From assembly GCA_902524655.1 (NCBI GenBank), contig CABZEG010000009.1, positions 1 through 54,828 on the forward strand: a DNA stretch of 54,828 bases, read 5' to 3'. Shown one piece after another: positions 1,750 through 44,224 of the stretch (its first letter is position 1; each line of letters begins with the position of its first letter). The notes beneath the pieces were generated by a model. The model searched no databases and had not been told where the DNA came from. It saw nothing but the letters and a program-made list of their open reading frames with translations. Both the position numbers and the translations under genes were made by a program. This DNA comes from an uncultured Alphaproteobacteria bacterium (GTDB lineage: Bacteria; Pseudomonadota; Alphaproteobacteria; Rhodobacterales; Rhodobacteraceae).

Positions 1750-1780
1750 ACCGTAGGTTCGAATCCTACCACCCCAGCCA
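1750..1780 (+). repeat. R1: truncated tRNA-Gln 3'-end copy (T-arm and acceptor only)
   Basis: Thirty-one bases identical to the last part of repeat R2: variable-loop end, T-stem/loop GTAGG-TTCGAAT-CCTAC, acceptor strand CACCCCA, discriminator G and CCA. There is no anticodon arm and no P-arm-like leader, because the DUF924 stop codon is directly to the left. It cannot make a functional tRNA. Best read as an attachment-site scar whose left side was lost or replaced. Confidence 0.85.
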
Positions 1781-1880
1781 CATGCAGGCATAAGTTATGC
1801 AAAGTTTCCTGAGATTGATGTCTACGCTAAACTGTATCTCGAGCAACGCTCTTTATCGATTTTAATATCGAATTAAATAC

Positions 1881-3515
1881 TTATTTTAACCACCTGACCC
1901 ACCTTGTTACCTCATCAGGCTTAAGTATGTCAAATTTCATATCCCCTTTATTCAGCAATACTAAATTAGGACTTTTGGGTCGTTGAACGTCCGCAGAACA
2001 CAAAGCATCCATAAGTCCATCATCATTTATGTCTATTAATAGACTTTTATGACAGTATGAATTCCAGGGGTGACGAAACTCATCTTTGACCATTGAGCCC
2101 CAAACTTTTGGGTTTTGCCATTCTGGTAGAGGCTTCAGAAAGATATTGTGATCAGCTAAGCGCAATTGTCCACCAATATTTTCGTATGCAATCCAAGCAG
2201 AACCGGAGTAATTTGGACCTACCACTGAGCTAATAATATCGGCATCGCCATCATTATCAAAATCAAATGCAGTCATTTCAGGTACTGTAGAGAACATGAA
2301 CTTGCCGTCCATAAGGGGTTCCAATTTTTGCTTTATATAAAACGTTCCTTTTCCATCACCTAGCAATAACACTGTCCTTTGTCTCTTTGGGTTAGAATAT
2401 TTTTGCGAGGAATATTTTGCATACACAGGATTATAATGATCTGCACTTACCACCATATCTAGGTTCCCATCATTATTGAAGTCTGCTGTAGTCATCGAAG
2501 AACCATTTACATTTGAACAAAGTTTCCCATTAAAGTTTCCATTTCCATCATTATAATGGCAAACTACGCCTGCAAACTCAGTCGTTAGAATGTCGATATC
2601 TCCGTCATTATCAATATCGCCAGCATCTGCTCCATGAGAAAACCCCATATATATTTTTCGTTTTTTGTCGGTGAGATATCCAGTATGATAACTTTGTTTC
2701 CATTTTCCTTGGCCATCCGAAATGAGAATATGATTAGGTCCTTTGTAGCTAAATTTCCCTTTTATATTTTGAACCTGTGCATTAGTAGGATAAATGTCGT
2801 CTATACCATCTCCATTAAAATCTTCTATAATCGCCCTAGCAGCGTTCGCTGCATAACCTATGTTTCTATCGCCATCGAAATCAAAAATCTTGTTAACATT
2901 TAGCTTTTCAAACCTTTTTTCTTTTTTGATCACTTTGAACGGAATGAATGGTACCCATAGAGCCGTTTGAAAAGACGCGCACCCCTCACGACCTTCCTTG
3001 ACCACGCTGTTCCCTGACGTTCCGCCAGTACCACAACGGTGCCCCATCCCTAGCCCTATATAGTCCAGTAATCCATCACTATCCCAGTCACCCCAGGCAG
3101 AGCCTGCTTTATAAAAGACACCGCGATCACTATTTATTTTTCCTCGAAACCATGAATTGCTTGGAAGAAGGTATTTCCCCGAACTTTCTTTCAGAGTTTT
3201 GTCAATATAATGCCCTGAAAGCGTAATACCTAAATTCTCAGCTCGGATTTTCAGTGACAGATTTTTACTCTTTAAGGTGGCTTTTAAATTCTCAAGGTCA
3301 CTGGGGTCGATCGTTCCGTCGAAAGTTGATCCCTGATCCGTATAATAGTTAGCGATTGCGTTTATGGTCTTTTTTCCTATTACGCCGTCACTTGGTCCAG
3401 CCTTATATCCAAGTTGATTGAGTATTTTTTGCGCTTTTAATACATTTGTAGAAGCCCAGATAGTGGACGCAAAAAGCAAAGCTCCACAAAAAACTGCAAG
3501 CAACCTAAAACCCAT
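1881..3515 (-). CDS. Secreted FG-GAP/VCBS-repeat protein with N-terminal peptidoglycan-binding-like domain (A)
   Basis: A 544-residue exported protein. Residues 1-22 are a signal peptide ending near WAS. Residues ~27-85 resemble a PG_binding_1 domain (QKILNQLGYKAGPSDGVIGK followed by KTINAIANYYTD). The rest is FG-GAP/VCBS beta-propeller repeats with Ca-binding Asp-rich loops: DFNGDGIDDIY, DIDNDGDIDIL, DFNNDGNLDMV, DFDNDGDADII and DINDDGLMDAL. Such propellers bind ligands or other proteins outside the cell; no catalytic residues are evident. ATG 3515 has a good upstream site (GGGAGAAAA). It is the only payload between R1 and R2 and is clearly paralogous to the protein at 3826-5565, on the opposite strand. 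Target unknown. Confidence 0.85.
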   Translation of the reverse strand: MGFRLLAVFCGALLFASTIWASTNVLKAQKILNQLGYKAGPSDGVIGKKTINAIANYYTDQGSTFDGTIDPSDLENLKATLKSKNLSLKIRAENLGITLSGHYIDKTLKESSGKYLLPSNSWFRGKINSDRGVFYKAGSAWGDWDSDGLLDYIGLGMGHRCGTGGTSGNSVVKEGREGCASFQTALWVPFIPFKVIKKEKRFEKLNVNKIFDFDGDRNIGYAANAARAIIEDFNGDGIDDIYPTNAQVQNIKGKFSYKGPNHILISDGQGKWKQSYHTGYLTDKKRKIYMGFSHGADAGDIDNDGDIDILTTEFAGVVCHYNDGNGNFNGKLCSNVNGSSMTTADFNNDGNLDMVVSADHYNPVYAKYSSQKYSNPKRQRTVLLLGDGKGTFYIKQKLEPLMDGKFMFSTVPEMTAFDFDNDGDADIISSVVGPNYSGSAWIAYENIGGQLRLADHNIFLKPLPEWQNPKVWGSMVKDEFRHPWNSYCHKSLLIDINDDGLMDALCSADVQRPKSPNLVLLNKGDMKFDILKPDEVTRWVRWLK

Positions 3516-3564
3516 AGTATTTTTTCTCCCTTAAATTCTTTATCCTCCATCACCCATTTACAAG

Positions 3565-3741
3565 ATATTTTTTGACAACACTTTTGACAACAGTTTTCGT
3601 GATTGACCTGATAACGCATAAGAACCATGAGAAGCATAAGAACTATTTTAAAGGGTTATGAGAAAACTGATAACTCCTGATAACAATATCCACGGGTTTT
3701 GATCCCGTGTACCGTAGGTTCGAATCCTACCACCCCAGCCA
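3565..3741 (+). repeat. R2: full-length tRNA-Gln-derived attR-like repeat
   Basis: About 177 bp. The left part (3565-3690) carries two TTTTGACAAC boxes about 12 bp apart (3570-3592), CTGATAAC boxes at 3608, 3667 and 3677, and phased CATAAGAA/CATGAGAA boxes between them. The right part (3691-3741) is the 3' half of tRNA-Gln: an anticodon stem-loop with loop TTTTGAT (anticodon TTG), variable loop, T-arm, acceptor CACCCCA, G and CCA. No matching 5' half (D-arm, TGGGG acceptor strand) precedes it. This is the layout of attR after integration into a tRNA 3' end: element arm with arm-type repeats, then the tRNA core. Confidence 0.85.
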
Positions 3742-3825
3742 TCTAATATCTTTTATCTATCAGGGCAAGATTGATTGCTATTTACATAAAAAAGTTCCAA
3801 GCTATTTTTTGTCAGGAGAAAAAAT

Positions 3826-5565
3826 ATGATGAAGATTATCAAGATTCTAGGGATAGCCTTATTTATATTTTTGCAGAGCATGGCAGCGAACTCTAATTCA
3901 TACGTTCGAGGAAGCCAATATATGCTCAATCAATTAGGTTATGCAGCCGGAACAGAAGACGGGATAAAAGGAAAAAATACAATAGAGGCATTAACTAAAT
4001 ATTATGCCGATAATAATAAAGTTTTTGATGGAACCATTGATGACAATGAATTGATAGATTTAAAAGCTTCTGTAATAAGTTTGGGAATTCCTAAAATCGA
4101 GGAAACGAAAAATAAGTTAAAGGTACACTTTTTTGGAAACTTTATTTCAAATCAATCGAAAATAATACCGGACTCAAACTCACCATATTTTTTACCCTCC
4201 GATCTATTTCAAAGAAAAAATGCCTCTGAAAATAGAGAGGTATTCTACATAAATCATATGGCATTTGGAAATTTGAATAATGATGGTCGCCAAGATTTAC
4301 TTATGTCTTATGAGATGGAAGTTTGTCCTGATGGCTATACCCTTACATCTATAGGTGTCCCTCTGTGCGAGATAAAAAGTGATAATGACCGTTTCTTAAA
4401 TTTTACTGCATTTTCGGTAAGTATTAATGAACGAGACGAAACCATTATCAATGATTTTGAGCACAATACTTCTATGGGTAGAAATTGTCAGAGACCAGTA
4501 CTAGCCGATTTTAATAATGACGGAATAGATGACGTATATTGCCCAAGTGCTTTTGGCCACACTTACAAAGGAAAGTTTTATCATGGGGGAGCAGATATAG
4601 TTTTCATTTCTAACGACAAAGGTTGGATGCATGTAAAGGAAAAGGGAGCTTTCGTAGATAAAGATACAGGGCTATACCAAGGGTTTTCACATGGCGTTAC
4701 GGCGAATGATATTGATCATGATGGGGACTTAGATGTGGTAACTCCCCATATTAAATGGGAAAATACAAAAGGCGGGGGCAAGATATATTGCCATTTTAAT
4801 GATGGTGCTGGGAACTTTACTGTAAAACACTGTGCTGACCAATTTGCTTTTGCCGTAACAAGCGGTGATTATAATGGTGATGGAATAGTTGATTTAATAG
4901 CTAGTGGAGGTTGGTTTGAAAAAAAATTGTATTCACATAATAGTAGTAAGAAACATAATAATACCGTAGTTCTGTTTGGGGATGGTAAAGGAAGTTTTAA
5001 AACCGGTTGGGAAAAAATTCCACCAGCTTATGACATTTATGGATCGGGATATTTACTATCACACGTCGTAGATCTAGTATCATGGGACTTTGATGGAGAT
5101 GGGGATCTAGATATAGCAGGAACCACCGTAGGCCCACTTTACGCTGGAGGAACTCACACTATTTGGTCTAATAATGGGGAGGGTAAATTTACCATCGCAG
5201 ATCAAATTCCGATGATTTCTGGAAAAAAGAGCTGGACTTCTGTAAAAGCCTGGAAGAAGGATATTAAGTCTGAAAGTAATAGATGGAATTCATATTGCGG
5301 TAGCACCAAGTTAATTGATGTTAATAACGACGGTATGATGGATATGTACTGCGATACTCCTACACAGGATAAACATGGTGGCTGGGTCTTTCTAAACATG
5401 GGAGGACTTCAGTTTAAAAAGATTTCTCCGTTTAACGCATGGAGTAAAGACTGGACCATTTATTACACAGGCCCAACAGGTTATTCATTTCAAGATTTTG
5501 AGGGTTACTCTGATCCAGATCTCTTTGAAACTCATTGGGAATATAAACCATTATTTGAAAAATAA
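3826..5565 (+). CDS. Secreted FG-GAP/VCBS-repeat protein with N-terminal peptidoglycan-binding-like domain (B)
   Basis: A 579-residue exported protein with the same design as protein A: signal peptide at ~1-23, PG_binding_1-like segment at ~27-85 (MLNQLGYAAGTEDGIKGKNT, then IEALTKYYAD), then FG-GAP/VCBS repeats with DFNNDGIDDVY, DIDHDGDLDVV, DYNGDGIVDLI, DFDGDGDLDIA and DVNNDGMMDMY. The linker FDGTID(D/P) and the ending WNSYC...LID-N-DG-MDA-C are shared with A, so the two are diverged paralogs rather than a recent copy. CAGGAGAAAAAAT precedes ATG 3826. It is the sole payload between R2 and R3. The cell-wall link and ligand are inferred from the domains only. Confidence 0.85.
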   Translation: MMKIIKILGIALFIFLQSMAANSNSYVRGSQYMLNQLGYAAGTEDGIKGKNTIEALTKYYADNNKVFDGTIDDNELIDLKASVISLGIPKIEETKNKLKVHFFGNFISNQSKIIPDSNSPYFLPSDLFQRKNASENREVFYINHMAFGNLNNDGRQDLLMSYEMEVCPDGYTLTSIGVPLCEIKSDNDRFLNFTAFSVSINERDETIINDFEHNTSMGRNCQRPVLADFNNDGIDDVYCPSAFGHTYKGKFYHGGADIVFISNDKGWMHVKEKGAFVDKDTGLYQGFSHGVTANDIDHDGDLDVVTPHIKWENTKGGGKIYCHFNDGAGNFTVKHCADQFAFAVTSGDYNGDGIVDLIASGGWFEKKLYSHNSSKKHNNTVVLFGDGKGSFKTGWEKIPPAYDIYGSGYLLSHVVDLVSWDFDGDGDLDIAGTTVGPLYAGGTHTIWSNNGEGKFTIADQIPMISGKKSWTSVKAWKKDIKSESNRWNSYCGSTKLIDVNNDGMMDMYCDTPTQDKHGGWVFLNMGGLQFKKISPFNAWSKDWTIYYTGPTGYSFQDFEGYSDPDLFETHWEYKPLFEK

Positions 5566-5588
5566 TTTCAAGAGTTGTCATTATAGAG

Positions 5589-5618
5589 CCTTAGGTTCTA
5601 GTCCTACCACCCCAGCCA
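5589..5618 (+). repeat. R3: truncated, slightly decayed tRNA-Gln 3'-end copy
   Basis: Thirty bases matching the T-arm and acceptor end, with two changes in the T-arm (TTAGG-TTCTAGT-CCTAC). It keeps CACCCCAGCCA. As with R1, no anticodon arm or repeat-rich leader precedes it, and it sits 23 bp after the stop codon of FG-GAP gene B. Confidence 0.75.
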
Positions 5619-5672
5619 ATTACTAAAATTAGCCTTATGGTTTTGTAAACTTTTGTCTTTATAAGATTATCA

Positions 5673-7034
5673 TTAATATTGCTTCCAACCTACTGAGCAG
5701 TGAAATGGCATAGAGTATATAAGGTTAGATTTGTCAGAAATTTTTTTCAGCTCAACATCTAGTTCAATTTTCTCATCTTCATTCAAAGTTTGTCGTGTGC
5801 GTCTTAGAAACCACTCAAATAAATTTTTGTCTTTTCCTCTAGGCACAGCAACCATGCTTGGAAAGTTAATCGATTCATGAAGTCCGTTTTTGCGCATCTG
5901 GTCATAAAGTGATTTGTCAGCAATGCCATAAGTACTTTTTAATTGAAGAGGAATATTTAACTTATGCTTTAATTCGCCAGTTATATCGAAGTTAAACCAC
6001 TGAGGCATGTCAATAGCTCTTACAATTATTCCTATAGATCCTCCTGGTTTGACTACCCTCACTATTTCTTTTATTGCTTTATCTGCATCACATTCCTCCA
6101 AGACAGTTACGGAATAAACAGCATCAAAAAAGTTATCGGGAAAGGGTATATCAATGGCGTCACTGTAAGCGAAGTTTAATTCACCAGCTTCAGAAAAATT
6201 CTTCTCTGTAAATTCTTTCTCATCAATATAATTATTAACATGCAAATCTTCATTTTCAGCGATTTGGATTGCTCCATTCAACAAGTAGGTATTTATATCA
6301 ACCCCGGTTAAAGAAAGGTCTGGTCTCAAGTTTAAAACTTGACGACATAGAGCACCAGTCCCACAACCCAATTCTAAAATTTTTCCATTTGGTGTAATAT
6401 TCATTATTGATACCAATGATGAAATCATAGTTTGATAAGTTGGTAGAGCTGCACGACTTTCCAAAACTGGAATAAATCCTAAATTAGGCCCACTTAAAGT
6501 GATTACTGTAAATTTTTCTGCCAGTAATGGTATTACTGGTTTCCATTGTGCTGCCGACAGAGTGAATGGGAAAAGAATTAAAGGAGGTCCACTTCCTTCA
6601 ATTGAAAAGTAAGTGTCTTTGAATTTTCCGTCCATTTTGGATTTTGCAAATGCATTTTTTTTTGAACCCATAGATCCAAAAAAGTTCGAAAGACTTTCGA
6701 ATAATTGTTTGGGATGATCTATGGAAATATCTGACCACGGAAGTATTTCATAGTTTTTTATTTCATAGGTACTTGCCTTTTTTAAATCCTTTTTAAAATC
6801 ATTTGCTGCCGTCTTGGTAGGTCCATGCTCACTATTTATCATCAATATTCTTTCAGCAATAATTTCAAAAGCTGAGCTATTTGTTTCATTTGGGCCAACG
6901 AGGGCTAACCCAATAACTTTTTCCGGATAAACTTTACAAAAATCCTCGATATCAGCAGGGTATTGCGCGGCAAGGAAAGCATCGTTTAATTCCAGATGGT
7001 CCAATAGGTCAGCAATGTCACTTGACTTACTCAT
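5673..7034 (-). CDS. Degenerate alpha/beta-hydrolase-like N-terminus fused to a class I SAM methyltransferase
   Basis: A 453-residue protein. The C-terminal half is a Rossmann SAM methyltransferase: motif I ELGCGTG at 221-227, an acidic VD after strand 2, DNFFDAVYSVTVLEE as the motif III region, and EIVRVVKPGG. The N-terminal half looks like alpha/beta-hydrolase sequence in swapped order. Residues ~1-50 resemble the helix-nucleophile-elbow stretch (LLDHLELNDAFLAAQYPADI) but lack GxSxG; residues ~143-190 resemble the beginning of a hydrolase (GSGPPLILFPFTLSAAQW). It is therefore probably non-catalytic as a hydrolase. Methyl acceptor unknown. The only payload between R3 and R4. The frame is closed 15 codons upstream of ATG 7034. 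Confidence 0.75.
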   Translation of the reverse strand: MSKSSDIADLLDHLELNDAFLAAQYPADIEDFCKVYPEKVIGLALVGPNETNSSAFEIIAERILMINSEHGPTKTAANDFKKDLKKASTYEIKNYEILPWSDISIDHPKQLFESLSNFFGSMGSKKNAFAKSKMDGKFKDTYFSIEGSGPPLILFPFTLSAAQWKPVIPLLAEKFTVITLSGPNLGFIPVLESRAALPTYQTMISSLVSIMNITPNGKILELGCGTGALCRQVLNLRPDLSLTGVDINTYLLNGAIQIAENEDLHVNNYIDEKEFTEKNFSEAGELNFAYSDAIDIPFPDNFFDAVYSVTVLEECDADKAIKEIVRVVKPGGSIGIIVRAIDMPQWFNFDITGELKHKLNIPLQLKSTYGIADKSLYDQMRKNGLHESINFPSMVAVPRGKDKNLFEWFLRRTRQTLNEDEKIELDVELKKISDKSNLIYSMPFHCSVGWKQY

Positions 7035-7174
7035 AGGCGATAAACTGTATAATCGAAAGCATGCCTGACCAGCGAAACAAGATCAGGTAATTTATATCTT
7101 TAGAAAATATATTTAAGATCGCCATCGACAATTCCTTGATTTAGTTCACATTAGAAACTATTACGGAAATGCTA

Positions 7175-7348
7175 GTTTTTGACAACACTTTTGACACCTG
7201 TTTTCGTGATTTTCCTGACAACGCATAAAAAACATGAGGAGCATAGGAGCTATTTTAAAGGCTTATGAGAAAACTGATAACTCCTGATAACAATATCCAA
7301 GGATTTTGATCCCATGTACCGTAGGTTCGAATCCTACCACCCCAACCA
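7175..7348 (+). repeat. R4: tRNA-Gln-derived attR-like repeat
   Basis: About 174 bp, collinear with R2. It has TTTTTGACAAC and TTTTGACACC boxes (7175-7197), CTGACAAC and two CTGATAAC boxes, then the tRNA-Gln 3' half from ~7299. The anticodon stem has lost pairing (CAAGGA/TCCCATG), the discriminator is A not G (CCCCAACCA), and the T-arm is intact. Not a functional tRNA. Confidence 0.85.
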
Positions 7349-7510
7349 TGCTGAATTTAGATAAAGATCCCACAAAAACTACCAGATACCAAGGTCCAAA
7401 AAATATCTCAATATAAATATGGGTGGGATGTTGCTAAAAATATTATCATATTTTTAAGACTAGTATATGCTTTTTAAAGGGCAAAGAAGAGTAGAAAGGA
7501 AATTTAAAAT

Positions 7511-8338
7511 ATGTCTAGAACTACAAAAATATCTGTGGGTTCCATTCAAGTAACAGCACTTCGAGATGGTGAGCTTTATCTCCCCAAAGAGGCTCTCGTT
7601 AATTTAAGAGAGGAAGATGCAGCAATAATTAATGATAGTGAAAATAGTGAGCTTATATACGGTAATGTGAACGCATACTTGATACAAAGCGCTAATCGAA
7701 ATCTTTTAATTGACGCAGGATGCAGGGAATTGTTTGGGCCTACATGTGGCTTTCTTCAAGATGCTATAAAGGAGACTGGACTACAACTAAACGATATAAC
7801 TGATTTGTTTTTCACGCATCTACATCCAGATCATATTGCTGGTGCAATCAATACAGATGGAAAGGCTATTTTTGAAAATGCGGCATTACAAGTATTGGAA
7901 TCAGAACATGATTTTTGGACAAAAAATAACTTTGACCCCATCGAAGTAAACGGAGCTGATTGGGCAAACTTAGCAAGAGGTGTTTTAAGCGCATATAATG
8001 ATAAAAAAGAAATAATTTCATTTACTAAAGATCTAATTCCTGGTGTTTCACTACTAAGCATTCCAGGGCATACTCCAGGCCACTCTGGATTTAGAGTTGA
8101 TAGTGATAATCAAGCTCTTGTTCATTTAGGGGATATAATCCATGCTCCCAATCTGCAACTTAATGATCCGAATGCTTCCACAATATTCGATATAGACGGT
8201 GGAGAAGCGCTGAACTCTAGGAAGAAAATGCTTGATATGGTTAGTACGGACAGAGTTATGTGTACGAGCGGACACACTTTAGAGCCAAAATTCGGATTTA
8301 TTGAGAAGCATGGTACAGGTTTTAAATTTAAAGCTTGA
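7511..8338 (+). CDS. Metallo-beta-lactamase-fold metal-dependent hydrolase
   Basis: A 275-residue cytoplasmic MBL-fold enzyme. The metal signature HLHPDH is at 103-108, the next ligand motif PGHTPGHSG near 185, HLGD near 205 as the bridging Asp, and a late His in SGHTLEP. No signal peptide. Family members hydrolyse esters, lactones or thioesters, and this subgroup (N-terminal GSIQVTALRDGE) resembles lactonase-like MBL proteins, but the substrate cannot be read from sequence. It shares the R4-R5 interval with a convergent DUF1330-like gene. AAGGA lies ~9 bp before ATG 7511. Confidence 0.85.
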   Translation: MSRTTKISVGSIQVTALRDGELYLPKEALVNLREEDAAIINDSENSELIYGNVNAYLIQSANRNLLIDAGCRELFGPTCGFLQDAIKETGLQLNDITDLFFTHLHPDHIAGAINTDGKAIFENAALQVLESEHDFWTKNNFDPIEVNGADWANLARGVLSAYNDKKEIISFTKDLIPGVSLLSIPGHTPGHSGFRVDSDNQALVHLGDIIHAPNLQLNDPNASTIFDIDGGEALNSRKKMLDMVSTDRVMCTSGHTLEPKFGFIEKHGTGFKFKA

Positions 8339-8404
8339 AAGCTAAGAAATAATTTTCAAGCAATAAACGCTTTCTGATAACAGTTTTCATTATTCTCTTT
8401 ATAA

Positions 8405-8797
8405 CTAAGCTGTATAGTCGCTACATTTGTGTAAGTCAGCCTTTTTTACAGCCAGACTTCTTAGTTTCATGTTTTTCTCCGATGATGGTGCGGTCATCAA
8501 ATCCAGAAAAGCCTGATGACTGGGATACCAGATCCCTAAAGCTTCATGAATTTTCTGATTACCGATAAGTGTGGCTGAAGCCTCTGTTTGCCATAAAACT
8601 TTGCCTCCGACCTCAGCTAGAAGAATATTCAATATTTCCATGTAGTCTTTATAAAGTTTGCCATTTGGAAACTCAGCTTCTGCGTTGTACTCATTAAGAT
8701 TCAACATGATAATTGAACAATCTTTTGAAGTTCCAGCAATCTCTTTAAATTTTTCTATTTCTTCGATATTGACACTAGGTAGATCAACCAAATTCAT
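8405..8797 (-). CDS. DUF1330-like small protein
   Basis: A 130-residue protein with a ferredoxin-like pattern seen in DUF1330 proteins: MLNLNEY, LAEVGGKVLWQTEA, then YPSHQAFLDLM. The family is uncharacterised and related in fold to dimeric alpha/beta-barrel proteins. No signal peptide or membrane helix. Convergent with the MBL gene; the 66 bp between them includes CTGATAACAGTTTTCAT, which weakly recalls the repeat leader. A second, shorter DUF1330 protein is encoded at 19296-19586 but is not a close copy. Confidence 0.65.
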   Translation of the reverse strand: MNLVDLPSVNIEEIEKFKEIAGTSKDCSIIMLNLNEYNAEAEFPNGKLYKDYMEILNILLAEVGGKVLWQTEASATLIGNQKIHEALGIWYPSHQAFLDLMTAPSSEKNMKLRSLAVKKADLHKCSDYTA

Positions 8798-8840
8798 TCT
8801 CCATTAAAAGTAATTTTTTATTCATAGTCGTATTTTAAAA

Positions 8841-9019
8841 AGATATTTTTTGACAACACTTTTGACAACAGTTTTTGTGATTTTCCTGATAACTCATCAG
8901 AAGCATGAGAAGGAAAAGAACTATTTTAAAGGGTTATGAAAATCCTGATAACTCCTGATAACAATATCCACGGGTTTTGATCCCGTGTAACGTAGGTTCG
9001 AATCCTACCACCCCAACCA
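8841..9019 (+). repeat. R5: tRNA-Gln-derived attR-like repeat
   Basis: About 179 bp, the copy most like R2, starting with the same AGATATTTTTTGACAACACT. It has both TTTTGACAAC boxes, three CTGATAAC boxes, and an intact anticodon stem-loop (CACGGG-TTTTGAT-CCCGTG region). The T-arm is intact, the discriminator is changed to A (CCCCAACCA), and the variable loop reads TAAC. The conserved leader places the left boundary within a few bases of 8841. Confidence 0.85.
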
Positions 9020-9076
9020 TCTATTGCTAACATTCATTTTAAGTGGTCAATTTGCAAAGCAAAAGCAAATAAAAAT

Positions 9077-9787
9077 TCAATTAGCCATTTTAATGAAAAT
9101 ATCCCCCATACCTCCTCTGACCTCTTTGAGTAGTGTATTATTTCTAAGTGGACAGTAACTTCCAGTTATAACTTCTCTATTTATTTCTTCAATGTCCTTA
9201 GGTGAGCAAATTTTACCTTCGAATAGTACTCCAACTACAAGCCTTCCATTTATTTCAGTCACTCGTTTTTTATTTAGTGAGGTACCAACACAAATGGAAT
9301 CTCTATCGACCTCTTCGGGAAAATCTGATTTTATACAGGGACTTTTTATTGTTAATACGTTAATCAATTCCGTCTTTTCATTAAATGTTTTTTCAAGGAC
9401 CTGCACCTGAACAAATTTCATCACATCACAAGAACAGGGCCAACAACACCTGTAAAGCGAGCCACAAATTAGTTCATCTTCATCCTGGCCTCTAACAGAA
9501 ACAAATTCAGGTTGAGACCCGGGTCGTACAAGTGACCCAGAGACACTGCAATACATTTTATTTTTCTCAAAAAACTCGTCTCTAGATTTCGAATTATCTA
9601 AAATATATTTAAAGAATAGAGCACCCCCCGCATTTCTATTTTTATTTGGAAATATTTTTCCCCAATCTGCTCTTAACTCTTCATAATAACGTATCAATTT
9701 TAAACTATCAGAACTTTGAGGCTCTCCTAAACTTATTGAGGAGGTCAATAAGCACATAACAAAAAGTGTGAAAAGATATCGAGCCAT
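9077..9787 (-). CDS. Secreted Cys-rich protein, unrecognised family
   Basis: A 236-residue protein I do not recognise. The signal peptide is ~1-21 (MARYLFTLFVMCLLTSSISLG). The mature part has a striking cluster YRCCWPCSCD near residues 112-121 plus several further Cys (MYCSV, ICGSL, PCIKSD, ICVGT, ICSPK, YCPL), so it is probably disulphide-bonded or metal-binding in the periplasm. It starts 1 bp after the stop codon of the upstream ASPIC/UnbV gene (both on the - strand), so the two are one operon and the sole payload between R5 and R6. Confidence 0.7.
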   Translation of the reverse strand: MARYLFTLFVMCLLTSSISLGEPQSSDSLKLIRYYEELRADWGKIFPNKNRNAGGALFFKYILDNSKSRDEFFEKNKMYCSVSGSLVRPGSQPEFVSVRGQDEDELICGSLYRCCWPCSCDVMKFVQVQVLEKTFNEKTELINVLTIKSPCIKSDFPEEVDRDSICVGTSLNKKRVTEINGRLVVGVLFEGKICSPKDIEEINREVITGSYCPLRNNTLLKEVRGGMGDIFIKMAN

Positions 9788-9788
9788 A

Positions 9789-11285
9789 TCAATTTTTTTT
9801 ACCTTGGTTGAAAATATATTGATAGTTCAGCTTATCAATTTTGTATTTTGATTGTTGACCGTCAGTCCAATTTATCAGAATGTATTCAATCTCTTCATTT
9901 TCGCGAATTCCAAAATGGGCAACTGGTTCCATCTGGCATAAATACCCAGAGCCTGCATCTATAGTTTTAGCGTGGTTTCTGAAATTTGTCTTAAGTGTTA
10001 CGGTAGCACCTCGCGCTGGTGCATTATAAGAGTTTCTAGGTTCTATTCTTAAATATTGAAAATCGTCCTTAACATTAGCTGAGAAAAGGCTTAATGGTTC
10101 AGGGGCACTTTCACCATGAGCAATCAGTAGCTCCAAAATTCCGTCACCATTTAAATCCGCTACTGCTCCACCAGTGCCCAGACCAGTTTTTTCCAAAGCA
10201 TTCGTCAGTTCCAATAGTTCGAGTTTATTGTTATCAAGAACTCTAAATAATTTATTTGGTTGACCGATATTATTCAAAAATATCTCATCAAAACCATCAT
10301 TATCAAAATCGGCAGATATAACCGTTCTTATTTTTGAAGGTTGTCTGAAATTTAAAGACGCCGTATCGACAAATGTGTTATTTGCATGAGTGTATATTCT
10401 ATGAAAACCATTCCAATTCCCTGTAATAAGATCTAAGCTCCCATTATAACCAATATCAGAGAGAGCCGTTCCTCTTCCATTTTGAAGAGTATCATCGATA
10501 CCATACTCTACAGCTTTGTTAGTATATGAGCCGCCCCAATTTATCAGTAAAAAATTTGGGCCCCGCTCATTAGCAGCAAAAATATCGACTTTTCCTGATA
10601 GAATATGGCCTGCTACGACAGCACGGCCACCAGTCGTAGAATTTATTCCAAGCGAAGGTGCAATGTCTTGGATAATATCATTTTCCAGTTCGTAAAATCT
10701 TGTTGGGCCCCCATAGTTTGAGACATAAATTCCATAGTTACCGTTGCCACGTCTATCAACGCAAGCTACCGACCTACCCGCCGTAAGATTCAATTTTGCC
10801 TGATTTTTTTTTAAACTGAAGATATCGTAAATTGTTTCGTCCGCATCTATTAGACGATCTGAATATTTTTTTGTTCCACTATAAGTATCTGTATTCATGA
10901 AATAAATTTCTTCATATCCATCCTGATCCACATCGCAAGCAACAACTCCAATAGATGACCTTTTTTCATCAGCAAATAGTTCACTAGAATTAATATTTGT
11001 ATATGAACCATCCACATAGCTAAGGGCAAGATTAGGATACCGAAACCCTGTTACTATAAACTCCATTTTTCCATCATCGTTAAAATCTGTTACCGCCACG
11101 CCGTAAGAAAATCTCGGTATGTTATTTTCTATTTTATCGGTAATATTTTGAAAGAACTGAGCATTAGCAGCAAGATTATTTTCAGAAACACCTAAATAAA
11201 CAGCAAAGAAGGCTAGAACAACTTTACATTGTTTTAACGAGAAAATGTGTGCAGCAACTTTTTTAAAAAGTTCTTTTAAATCCAT
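9789..11285 (-). CDS. CRTAC1-like FG-GAP protein with C-terminal ASPIC/UnbV domain
   Basis: A 498-residue protein if started at ATG 11285, which has GGAG ~8 bp upstream; a GTG at 11306 would add seven residues and lacks such a site. A short positive N-terminus and hydrophobic segment (VVLAFFAVYLGV) suggest export. FG-GAP/VCBS repeats follow (DFNDDGKMEFI, DVDQDGYEEIY, DFDNDGFDEIF, DLNGDGILELL). Residues ~410-490 match ASPIC/UnbV (GATVTLKT, GSGYLCQMEPVAHFGI, INWTDGQ). CRTAC1-type proteins are extracellular Ca-binding propellers of unclear function. Co-transcribed with the Cys-rich gene at 9077-9787. Confidence 0.85.
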   Translation of the reverse strand: MDLKELFKKVAAHIFSLKQCKVVLAFFAVYLGVSENNLAANAQFFQNITDKIENNIPRFSYGVAVTDFNDDGKMEFIVTGFRYPNLALSYVDGSYTNINSSELFADEKRSSIGVVACDVDQDGYEEIYFMNTDTYSGTKKYSDRLIDADETIYDIFSLKKNQAKLNLTAGRSVACVDRRGNGNYGIYVSNYGGPTRFYELENDIIQDIAPSLGINSTTGGRAVVAGHILSGKVDIFAANERGPNFLLINWGGSYTNKAVEYGIDDTLQNGRGTALSDIGYNGSLDLITGNWNGFHRIYTHANNTFVDTASLNFRQPSKIRTVISADFDNDGFDEIFLNNIGQPNKLFRVLDNNKLELLELTNALEKTGLGTGGAVADLNGDGILELLIAHGESAPEPLSLFSANVKDDFQYLRIEPRNSYNAPARGATVTLKTNFRNHAKTIDAGSGYLCQMEPVAHFGIRENEEIEYILINWTDGQQSKYKIDKLNYQYIFNQGKKN

Positions 11286-11387
11286 CTTGTTTATTCTCCA
11301 ATACACAGAAGGTATTTTTTAATATTCTTTCTGAGGCAGTGAGTTGAGACCCTATAGTTACTCGATATCAAATAGACTAAAAAGGGA

Positions 11388-11548
11388 AATTGACAACAAT
11401 TTTGACAACAGTTTCTATGATTTTCATCATAACTCACATTAAGCATCAAAAGCATAAGAACTATTTAAAGGATTATGAGAACCCTGATAACAATATCCAT
11501 GGGTTTCGATCCTGTGTACCGAACGTTCGAATTTTACCACACCAGCCA
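11388..11548 (+). repeat. R6: partly decayed tRNA-Gln-derived attR-like repeat
   Basis: About 161 bp, collinear with R2 but shorter. Both TTGACAAC boxes are present (11390-11409), only one CTGATAAC remains before the tRNA part (the tandem pair has collapsed to one), and the anticodon stem-loop is mutated (TGGGTTTCGATCCTG). The T-arm is broken (CGAACGTTCGAATTTTACC) and the end is CACACCAGCCA. More decayed than R2, R4 and R5. Confidence 0.8.
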
Positions 11549-11657
11549 CTAAATCATCAAAAATTATAGTAAAAAGGTCCACGATCAAGCAATTGAAATT
11601 TTGAGAATAATAGTCTAACGTCGATAAAGAAAAGATACGTCAGGTAAAGGAATAATC

Positions 11658-12572
11658 ATGGAGAATATCGGCTCAATAACAACCCTAATAGTTATAGCAT
11701 TAATTATATTAACGATTTACCTCGGCGTTAAGGTAGTACCTCAATCCAAAGTATTTGTTATCGAACGATTTGGTAAATATTACAAAACCTTAAACGCTGG
11801 ACTATCAATAATTGTGCCTTATCTCGATAAGGTCGCACACAAAATTGATATTCTCGAAAGACAACTGGAAGCCCAGAAAATCTCAGTAATCACAAAAGAT
11901 AATGTTGAGGTCGAACTGGAGACCAGCATTTTCTACAGAGTAATAGATGCATCAAGGTCCGTTTACAGAATTTCTAATATTGATCAAGCCTTAAATACTG
12001 AGACATCATCGGTAGTAAGATCTGCAGCAGGAAAGCTTGAACTGGATGAGTTGCAATCAAGCCGAGACCAAATGAATTCAGAAATTGCAAACAGTTTGTC
12101 TCCATCGGCAGAAGTTTGGGGAATAGAAATAACTAGAACTTCTATTACGGATGTGATTGTAGATGATGCAACCAAAGAGGCTCAGCGTCAGCAATTGAAT
12201 GCTGAAAGAAATCGAAGAGCAACTGTCGCTGAAGCAGAAGGACAAAAACAATCAATCCAATTGAAGGCAGACGCAGAATTCTATAAGGCTAAAAAAGAAG
12301 CGGAGGCTGTAAAAGTATCAGCAGACGCTGAAGCATACTCTATAGAAGTTAAAGCCGCAGCAGATGCAAAGCAAACTGCTTTATTAGCCAAAGCCATAAA
12401 AGATAATGGAAAACCTGCAATTGATTTTGAAATAGCAAAGCGACAAGTCGATGCTATAGGTCAACTTACTGCTTCTCAAAATACAAAAACCTTAGTTTTA
12501 CCATCTAATATAAGTGGAATCTTTAGTGCATTCTCTGCGTTGATGGAAACTCTTCCAAAAGAAAAGAAATAG
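11658..12572 (+). CDS. qmcA: SPFH/stomatin-like membrane scaffold protein (QmcA type)
   Basis: A 304-residue protein with one N-terminal membrane helix (~8-25), then a band-7/SPFH domain starting VVPQSKVFVIERFGKYYKTL. A long Ala/Glu/Lys-rich coiled coil follows (~175-240), and the tail resembles the QmcA end (NTKTLVLPSNISG). Members form large ring or cage oligomers in the inner membrane and influence protease and membrane-domain organisation. AAAGGA precedes ATG 11658. The NfeD-like gene begins 4 bp after its stop, the standard SPFH/NfeD operon. This pair is the payload between R6 and R7. Confidence 0.85.
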   Translation: MENIGSITTLIVIALIILTIYLGVKVVPQSKVFVIERFGKYYKTLNAGLSIIVPYLDKVAHKIDILERQLEAQKISVITKDNVEVELETSIFYRVIDASRSVYRISNIDQALNTETSSVVRSAAGKLELDELQSSRDQMNSEIANSLSPSAEVWGIEITRTSITDVIVDDATKEAQRQQLNAERNRRATVAEAEGQKQSIQLKADAEFYKAKKEAEAVKVSADAEAYSIEVKAAADAKQTALLAKAIKDNGKPAIDFEIAKRQVDAIGQLTASQNTKTLVLPSNISGIFSAFSALMETLPKEKK

Positions 12573-12576
12573 GCAA

Positions 12577-12879
12577 ATGGATTACCTATTAATGTTTGTG
12601 TTCATTTTTCAAACTTGGATAGTTATCGGGATAGTTTTTCTTGTTTTTGAATTATTTGATGGAAGTACGATTTTTTTCTTGCCATTAAGTTTAAGTAGCT
12701 TCGTAACCAGCGCATATGTGTTTGCTTTAGAAAATGTGTTTCTTCCCTCTATCTTGTTCTTTGATCAGTGGTATGAACTTTTATTATTTTGGGCAGTCTT
12801 AGGATTACTTTTTTCACTTGTATTAGTTAAGTTTTGGAAGAGGTCTAGTTTTGACGATAGTGATATCAATAATTATTAA
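12577..12879 (+). CDS. NfeD-like small membrane protein
   Basis: A 100-residue protein with three or four hydrophobic helices (~5-25, 28-50, 58-85) and a short charged tail. Its size and its position 4 bp downstream of the stomatin gene match the YbbJ/NfeD1b partners of QmcA, although a C-terminal OB-fold is lacking. Assigned by context and membrane pattern; little sequence signature is otherwise visible. Likely co-translated with the SPFH gene. Confidence 0.65.
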   Translation: MDYLLMFVFIFQTWIVIGIVFLVFELFDGSTIFFLPLSLSSFVTSAYVFALENVFLPSILFFDQWYELLLFWAVLGLLFSLVLVKFWKRSSFDDSDINNY

Positions 12880-12892
12880 TGGGATGAGACGT

Positions 12893-13054
12893 CTGTTTTG
12901 ACAAAAGTTTTCATGATTTTGCTAATAGAGCATAATTATCATGAAAAGATAGGAACTATTTTAAAGGGTTATGAGAAAGCTGATCACTTCTGACTACAAT
13001 AGCCATAGATTCTGATCCACTACACCATAGCTTTCAATCCTATGACGCTAGTCA
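12893..13054 (+). repeat. R7: strongly decayed tRNA-Gln-derived attR-like repeat
   Basis: Collinear with R2 across ~160 bp but with many substitutions: a single TTTTGACAA box, GATTTTGCTAATAGAGCATAA for the CTGATAACGCATAA stretch, and a well-kept AACTATTTTAAAGGGTTATG block. Remnants of the anticodon loop (TAGATTCTGATCC) and T-arm (ATAGCTTTCAATCCTAT) end at GCTAGTCA. It is the most diverged copy and marks the right end of the recognisable array. Confidence 0.7.
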
Positions 13055-44004: not shown

Positions 44005-44014
44005 TTCAATAATA

Positions 44015-44160
44015 TCGGGAGAAACTAGTAATAGTTGCCGAAGGAGCAACCGCCCCGGAAACTCTCAGGCAAAAAGGACCGGTATAGACTGAACACTCTG
44101 GAGAGCGACTTTAAATAGTCCGCCGAAGGGATAACGATCTCAGGCAAATGAACAGAGGGG
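44015..44160 (+). promoter_or_regulatory. Tandem glycine riboswitch
   Basis: Two aptamers in tandem. Aptamer 1 (44015-44083) has TCGGGAGA, CCGAAGGAGCAA, and CTCAGGCAAAAAGGACCG. Aptamer 2 (44094-44158) has TCTGGAGAGCG, CGCCGAAGGG, CTCAGGCAAATG and ACAGAGG. The linker of ~10 bases (GTATAGACTGAA) is normal length for the class. Glycine binding should turn on the gcv genes downstream, which degrade glycine. Confidence 0.93.
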
Positions 44161-44224
44161 GCATTCTAAGATGTGTACTTATACACATCTTTAACGAATG
44201 CCGGTAAAATCAATTAATACCGGA
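44161..44224 (+). promoter_or_regulatory. Riboswitch expression platform with two strong stem-loops
   Basis: First hairpin: outer stem GCATTC / GAATGC (44161-44201) with an inner 9-bp stem AAGATGTGT / ACACATCTT (44168-44191). Second hairpin: CCGGTA / TACCGG (44201-44223), just before the gcvT ribosome site AGAGGG (44228-44233). No T-run follows, so control is more likely by hiding the ribosome site than by termination. The switch partner between aptamer 2 and these stems is not worked out. Confidence 0.6.

Follow-up and report, generated by a model that had tools for sequence, protein, structure and literature searches.

Tandem accumulation of islands behind an RNA gene is known from Dehalococcoides, where ssrA islands stand in series with direct repeats of the 3' end of the gene and a short conserved motif upstream of the repeat (PMC3146451). 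Fifteen of these islands lack an integration module and are discussed as possible cis-mobilizable elements, and an old, fixed region lies beyond the farthest repeats (PMC3146451). The array described here, in which partial copies of tRNA-Gln(UUG) alternate with small gene units, shares with them the tandem layout, the motif upstream of the repeat and the integrase-free members, and looks like a genomic island of a familiar kind in unusually tidy, extreme form. It was noticed in contig CABZEG010000009.1 (C9) of an uncultured Alphaproteobacteria bacterium of the Rhodobacteraceae (assembly GCA_902524655.1), whose 54,828 nucleotides, analysed at full length, are referred to as the window. The Dehalococcoides islands are associated with ssrA, a serine recombinase and a 20-nt repeat with a 15-nt motif, and 16 of them carry an integration module (PMC3146451); the present array, in contrast, lies at tRNA-Gln, has a tyrosine integrase as the candidate enzyme, a 49-nt core with a leader of ~123 nt and units of mostly one or two genes, and shows one integrase in 89 intervals between repeats.

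Additive islands with recurring partial tRNA copies are also described at tRNA-Lys of 'Ca. Methylopumilus' (PMC10872708) and in 'Ca. Actinomarinales' (PMC7771536), and additive islands in general in Alteromonas (PMC5217437). The first two resemble our case in that cassettes are added at a tRNA, content varies between strains and the hosts are streamlined aquatic bacteria; they differ in that the portions of these sources at hand mention no long conserved leader, and in that Methylopumilus islands range from 330 bp to 42 kb. As in additive flexible islands, cassettes were found here to be gained and lost at one conserved chromosomal place. Accretion of cis-mobilizable elements (CIMEs), integrase-free elements that keep their att sites and are stacked by site-specific recombination, provides a further parallel (PMC5704250). 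The units of the array likewise have att-like ends and no integrase, and array contigs hold one of the 80 Phage_integrase hits in the 22 genomes of the genus, on contig C8 of the bacterium's own genome. CIMEs are described as decayed integrative and conjugative or integrative and mobilizable elements in tandem (PMC5704250), whereas the array is a long series of very small recurrent units. The microcin H47 island, which is small and devoid of recombinase genes, has been shown experimentally to excise and integrate using functions encoded elsewhere in the cell (PMC3191183); it is a single 13-kb island and not an array.

The original prediction regarded small integrase-free units in series as new. 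No description of this tRNA-Gln array was recognised in searches of open-licence literature, while tandem islands with RNA-end repeats and additive islands with tRNA repeats have both already been published. Integron cassette arrays are series of small cassettes with apparently one entry end and outward decay, features that reappear here; unlike integrons, the array has a piece of tRNA as its core and sites made of leader plus tRNA core. Tycheposons, which Hackl et al. are said to have described in 2023 from marine bacteria, reportedly combine tRNA targets, a tyrosine recombinase and cargo, and in this the array is alike. Tycheposons span 4-200 kb (PMC10872708) and are larger than the units of the array, which measure ~2 kb, the integrase element reaching ~6.4 kb.

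The window contains seven copies of the 3' end of tRNA-Gln (R1 to R7), all on the forward strand and five of them preceded by a leader, just as had been predicted. Over their last 31 nt the copies lie at 1750-1780, 3711-3741, 5588-5618, 7318-7348, 8989-9019, 11518-11548 and 13024-13054, with 100 to 71% identity to the first. In the leader-bearing copies the common core extends to 49 nt, from the anticodon stem to CCA, and together with the leader makes a repeat of ~175 nt; the leader and the partial tRNA originally proposed both exist, but at ~123 nt rather than ~110 bp for the leader and at 49 nt (~31 nt in R1 and R3) rather than a 3' half for the core. R2 consists of a leader at 3570-3692, with a TTGACAAC pair and GATAAC sites, and a core at 3693-3741 that is the same as the 3' part of the intact tRNA. 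R4 (leader 7177-7299, core 7300-7348) and R5 (8848-8970, 8971-9019) follow the same plan. The repeats farther on are eroded: R6 has a partly decayed leader (11389-11499), from which one inner site is deleted, and a partly decayed core (11500-11548), and R7 a decayed leader (12884-13005) and the most decayed core (13006-13054; 71% over 31 nt). R1 (1748-1780) and R3 (5588-5618; 87% over 31 nt) have no leader, and R1 adjoins the stop codon of a DUF924 gene. The attR-like layout and the tRNA-Gln origin are both supported, and the cargo intervals of ~1.3-2.4 kb do hold one or two genes. Neither a tRNA gene nor a tyrosine integrase was found in the window, the four Phage_integrase matches of the genome lying on contigs C46, C8, C1 and C32. 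The claim that the array has no integrase thus holds for the cargo of the window, but an integrase element with the same leader lies behind the intact tRNA of the same genome.

The genome measures 1.77 Mb in 72 contigs and is 71% complete. One leader-core copy used as a query gave 15 matches in it: seven on C9, five on C38, two on C8 and one on C7, the last of which is a tRNA-Ser gene. C38 carries four repeats and a leader truncated by its right end. C8 has an intact tRNA-Gln(UUG), followed by open reading frames (ORFs), a 389-aa tyrosine integrase ~3 kb behind the tRNA, a flagellin-like gene and a leader at the contig end; the resulting element is ~6.4 kb long up to its leader, and a replication-initiation-like gene is among the ORFs between tRNA and integrase. 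C8 breaks off within a leader, as does C38 at its right end, and we infer that C8, C38 and C9 form a single array of ~38 kb. The C8 integrase resembles phage integrases (phrog_1, 223 bits) and, among solved structures, 6emz and others named Int protein (53-55 bits), 6emz being presumably Tn1549 Int. An arm-binding domain is hinted at by a score of 21.8 bits, below the cut-off of 22.3. A search of named genomes returned one distant match, at 27%. As an integron integrase the C8 enzyme, the only one scored, was rejected, with 29.5 bits to TIGR02249 against a cut-off of 265. The flagellin-like protein next to the integrase (locus L010, 133-2130, forward strand) has 665 aa with Flagellin_N and Flagellin_C ends.

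A consensus drawn from 33 well-kept leaders among the 67 full ones of the genus has TTGACAAC at positions 3 and 15 and GATAAC at 41, 100 and 110. The exact TTGACAAC pair occurs at eight sites in the 1.77-Mb genome, namely seven leaders and one right arm at the intact tRNA, and its reversed form, used as a control, at none; leaders scattered over the genome away from tRNA-Gln, a pattern the prediction was to be held against, are therefore not what this genome displays. In the window, four sites match the pair with up to three mismatches, against 0.12 expected in shuffled sequences. The right arm is a second TTGACAAC pair 93 nt past the intact tRNA, within the integrase element, so that in this genome the integrase is linked to the same arms on both sides of its element. 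Among 92 cores of the genus with enough sequence behind them, a right arm (at least 14 of 19 matches; shuffled segments reach at most 13) was detected at six, each time at +93 to +95 and four times at an intact tRNA, and three further cores score 13. Two other roles for the leader were tried and rejected. The first gene behind it lies on the same strand in 33 cases and on the opposite strand in 55, which does not support a promoter and, as mixed gene orientation, speaks against an integron as well; and a leader fold z of -0.76 argues against a folded single-stranded site like attC. A leader fragment without core was also seen at 1983-2064 of contig C11 in genome G019 (L050), in a 6-kb stretch with tRNA-Ser and without tRNA-Gln; it adjoins a gene that shares 97% identity with one from a G009 cassette and is possibly an off-site insertion.

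Leader matches are present in 19 of the 22 genomes of the genus; G010 has a match to the tRNA only, and G014 and G021 have none. Outside the genus the leader was found in none of 389 other genomes sampled from the order (390 drawn, the bacterium's own being the only match). With the arrays oriented tRNA-left, 116 model hits resolve into 15 intact tRNAs, 67 full repeats, seven core-only, 18 leader-only and nine other partial copies, and no repeat on the opposite strand. As in accretion of integrase islands at a tRNA, an intact tRNA-Gln heads 15 arrays, with partial 3' copies in the same orientation farther on, and in many arrays kdsA lies on one side and conserved genes on the other. Consecutive hits delimit 89 intervals with a median length of 2.0 kb (433 nt to 10.3 kb), 68 of which hold one or two genes, genes being ORFs of at least 70 aa taken longest first, some of them spurious. 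Single linkage at 35% identity yields 80 gene clusters in the intervals, 42 of which occur in one genome only. As a control, 20 of the 80 integrase loci were fetched, reaching 5.5-17 kb behind a tRNA (nine were without one); none of the 11 other tRNAs in them is accompanied by more than one extra partial copy (at least 22 of 30 matches). Among the loci examined, the array is peculiar to tRNA-Gln. A clean empty site was not recovered in other genera, where tRNA-Gln is present and kdsA stands beside it in only one of ten short loci. Leader pieces without a tRNA core often flank c14 (G004, G012, G016, G019 and G020) and are perhaps dead sites.

The extent of a unit can be read from the company its leader keeps. 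For 66 of the 67 full repeats (34 of the 101 non-tRNA model hits are partial and were left out), leader identity between different genomes is 0.838 when only the upstream gene is shared (84 pairs), 0.803 when only the downstream gene is shared (74), 0.821 when both are (16) and 0.780 when neither is (1835). The upstream value was matched by 1 of 1000 label shuffles and the downstream value by 145, in tests that, like our other p-values, count related repeats as though independent. Of the leader stretches, the outer 32 columns show the upstream link most strongly (0 of 1000; 14, 53 and 33 of 1000 farther inward), and a downstream link appears at the core start (20 of 1000). Leader and upstream cargo therefore tend to travel together. 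The flanks of the pairs drop to the level of unrelated sequence across the repeat (0.84 to 0.50; 0.49 versus 0.78). The arrays are also polar. In 51 core-bearing repeats of 12 tRNA-anchored arrays, with coreless repeats unscored, the core loses identity to the intact tRNA with increasing rank (Spearman -0.61 over 52 nt and -0.53 over 31 nt, the latter given since a core-only copy is bound to score low over 52 nt), and the units c8+c9 and c12+c10 stand at the far end in many species. Both observations fit entry at the tRNA.

Cassettes are gained, lost and rearranged between species. The 15 tRNA-anchored arrays begin with ten different units, and 28 of the 38 gene clusters common to at least two genomes have more than one pair of neighbours. 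Content and order thus vary among related genomes as expected of cassettes; fixation of the same genes and repeats in relatives, the outcome that had been named as fatal to the prediction, is not what they show. One example is a seven-gene cassette of 7.24 kb, with a solute-binding and a SnoaL-like protein, whose copies in G003, G005, G007, G010 and G011 match that of G000 at 98.9-99.75% identity over 6.6-7.4 kb, part of it being found in G017 (98.1% over 1.7 kb). Where the flanks were in hand, which was not so for each flank of each genome, their identity to G000 is 92-95% between kdsA and the tRNA (G003, G005, G010, G011) and, on the far side, 85-86% in G003, G005 and G007 and 88.9% over 785 nt in G017. 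In comparisons of G000 with G003, G005 and G007, proteins of the cassette are 8.6-12.8 points more alike than those of the flanks, while genes such as c12 and c22 have diverged further than the flanks; these differences indicate recent transfer for some cassettes, not for all. The cassette adjoins the tRNA in G003, G005, G010 and G011 and lies inside the array in G000 and G007, and identity to the former four starts exactly where the 49-nt core does, at C38 11390. Between G011 and G005, identity of 98.3% extends for 8.7 kb, from kdsA across the cassette, and stops at the core end. A one-gene c40 unit occurs in different contexts in G004, G005 and G019 with 95.9-97.5% identity including its ends, and a two-gene unit of ~2.3-2.5 kb present in G017 is absent from G007, the flanks being 97-98% identical. 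As for a vehicle, the gene transfer agent marker PF13547 was found in none of the 22 genomes (the control, Caulobacter, was positive), the viral_contigs set gave no match to exact leader and leader-core patterns, which may miss diverged copies, and no relative of the integrase was found in that set.

The probable explanation, in our view, is site-specific accretion of cis-mobilizable cassettes at tRNA-Gln, supplemented by editing through homologous recombination. A unit would run from the end of one 49-nt core through its cargo, mostly one or two genes, and a leader of ~123 nt to the start of the next core. The leader would most likely be one arm of an attachment site; a phage-type tyrosine integrase would bind it through its TTGACAAC pair and perhaps through GATAAC, with strand exchange within the tRNA core. 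Excised circles, carried between cells by some vehicle, would enter beside the intact tRNA and push older units outward, where cores decay. Units without an integrase would be served in trans by the element behind the tRNA of this genome, which has an integrase of this specificity, in keeping with the model of cis-mobilizable elements, and homologous recombination between the ~175-nt repeats would delete or swap internal units.

Several observations weigh against this explanation. Its weakest step would be movement in trans by an integrase of the C8 type, seen in one genome of 22: no relative (E<=1e-5) was detected in the other 21 genomes of the genus, among them the 18 other leader-bearing ones, which are 62-91% complete. 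Integrases of this kind usually need two arms, and a clear right arm was not found behind 86 of the 92 cores, so that most cassettes are one-armed. No circle and no tRNA-Gln free of units was seen in the genus. Cassette proteins on average are 2.0 points less alike than flank proteins (405 comparisons). Association of the leader with its upstream cargo is imperfect, as a downstream link also appears in the outermost leader window (39 of 1000) and the nearest leader elsewhere has neither neighbour in common for 41 of 61 repeats. Decay is not strictly monotonic, mean 31-nt identity over ranks 1-6 being 0.98, 0.92, 0.87, 0.92, 0.66 and 0.84. The single repeat of G007 that replaces the extra unit of G017 is a chimera of the two repeats flanking that unit: up to column 90, seven of ten informative columns are like one of them (two like the other, one like neither), and from column 101 all seven are like the other. 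Such a switch inside the leader is homologous recombination. The assemblies, finally, are fragmentary, and misjoins at repeats are possible.

It is conceivable, though doubtful, that the genus shares genes in an integron-like way throughout, with standard cassettes of one or two genes and a uniform single-armed site being captured at tRNA-Gln by an occasional integrase that a phage-like or satellite element using the same site brings in. Somewhat unlikely is a reading of the units as relics of two-armed integrase islands that have lost the integrase and the right arm through deletion and are now barely mobile. The six retained right arms, four of them at an intact tRNA, the decayed distal cores, the constant place of c8+c9 and c12+c10 and the single integrase among the array contigs all agree with it; against it, small integrase-free units such as c40 recur in different contexts, which argues that they moved as they are. 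We consider it improbable that homologous recombination between repeats acts alone, the leader and core being homology left by old insertions at which foreign DNA is swapped at any repeat and no integrase being active today. The G007 chimera, the frequent lack of common neighbours between nearest leaders and the want of an integrase relative in 21 genomes speak for it, but ten different units adjoin the intact tRNA, a leaderless site at which the 49-nt core is the only homology on offer, similarity breaks off at the core's first base and at its end, the leader is linked to the upstream cargo and the right-arm motifs keep a fixed distance. Misjoining of contigs at repeats, suggested by the fragmentary genomes and by the breaks inside leaders at C8 and C38, is very unlikely to have created the cassette orders, as the shared distal order, near-identical cassettes in diverged species and regular decay gradient are not products of misjoins.

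The cargo of the window, which has a GC content of 35-40%, is diverse. Ahead of R1 lie an alcohol dehydrogenase/quinone-reductase-like gene on the reverse strand and the DUF924 gene on the forward strand (2-1747); the latter gene, c4, ends at the R1 core (1740-1790). G003, G005, G008 and G017 have no core separating c4 from c6, and both genes belong to a single unit; two-gene cassettes may arise in this way. The neighbouring units at 1881-3515 (reverse strand) and 3826-5565 (forward) encode related FG-GAP proteins of one cluster in opposite orientation, the former with a peptidoglycan-binding domain. A methyltransferase-domain protein is encoded at 5673-7034 (reverse). The unit at 7511-8797 comprises a metallo-beta-lactamase-fold protein (7511-8338, forward), nearest to AidB-type N-acyl homoserine lactonase at 170 bits, below the cut-off of 360, and a 130-aa protein on the reverse strand. 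The reverse-strand unit at 9077-11306 holds a 236-aa protein and an FG-GAP/UnbV_ASPIC protein (9789-11306), a third FG-GAP protein of a different kind, and the last, at 11658-12879 on the forward strand, an SPFH/Band 7 protein and a 100-aa membrane-like protein. No transfer genes turned up in Pfam scans of ten window proteins, in which relaxase and secretion genes were not searched for specifically. On C38 (L009), the units at 3612-5640 and 5969-10031 encode a PvuRts1I/SRA-type modification-dependent endonuclease (mREase_II, 271.6 bits) and a vWA, PP2C and kinase-like gene set, possibly phage-defence cargo. Away from the array, a tandem glycine riboswitch with two aptamers (59.2 and 41.3 bits) lies at 44006-44165 of the forward strand of the window.

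Flexible islands at tRNA genes hold much of the variation in gene content of streamlined aquatic bacteria, a view also argued in the island papers cited above. In such islands it is usually hard to make out what is exchanged as a unit. The present arrays, followed through 19 species genomes, let one read from sequence the unit and its docking site as well as a candidate enzyme and the direction of growth, and the locus looks like a site-specific gene-collecting site whose reshuffled stacks differ between species. Reading outward from the tRNA, one also obtains an approximate order in which genes were acquired, and the array makes testable whether genes without a mobility gene of their own can travel as single cassettes by means of the enzyme of a passing element.

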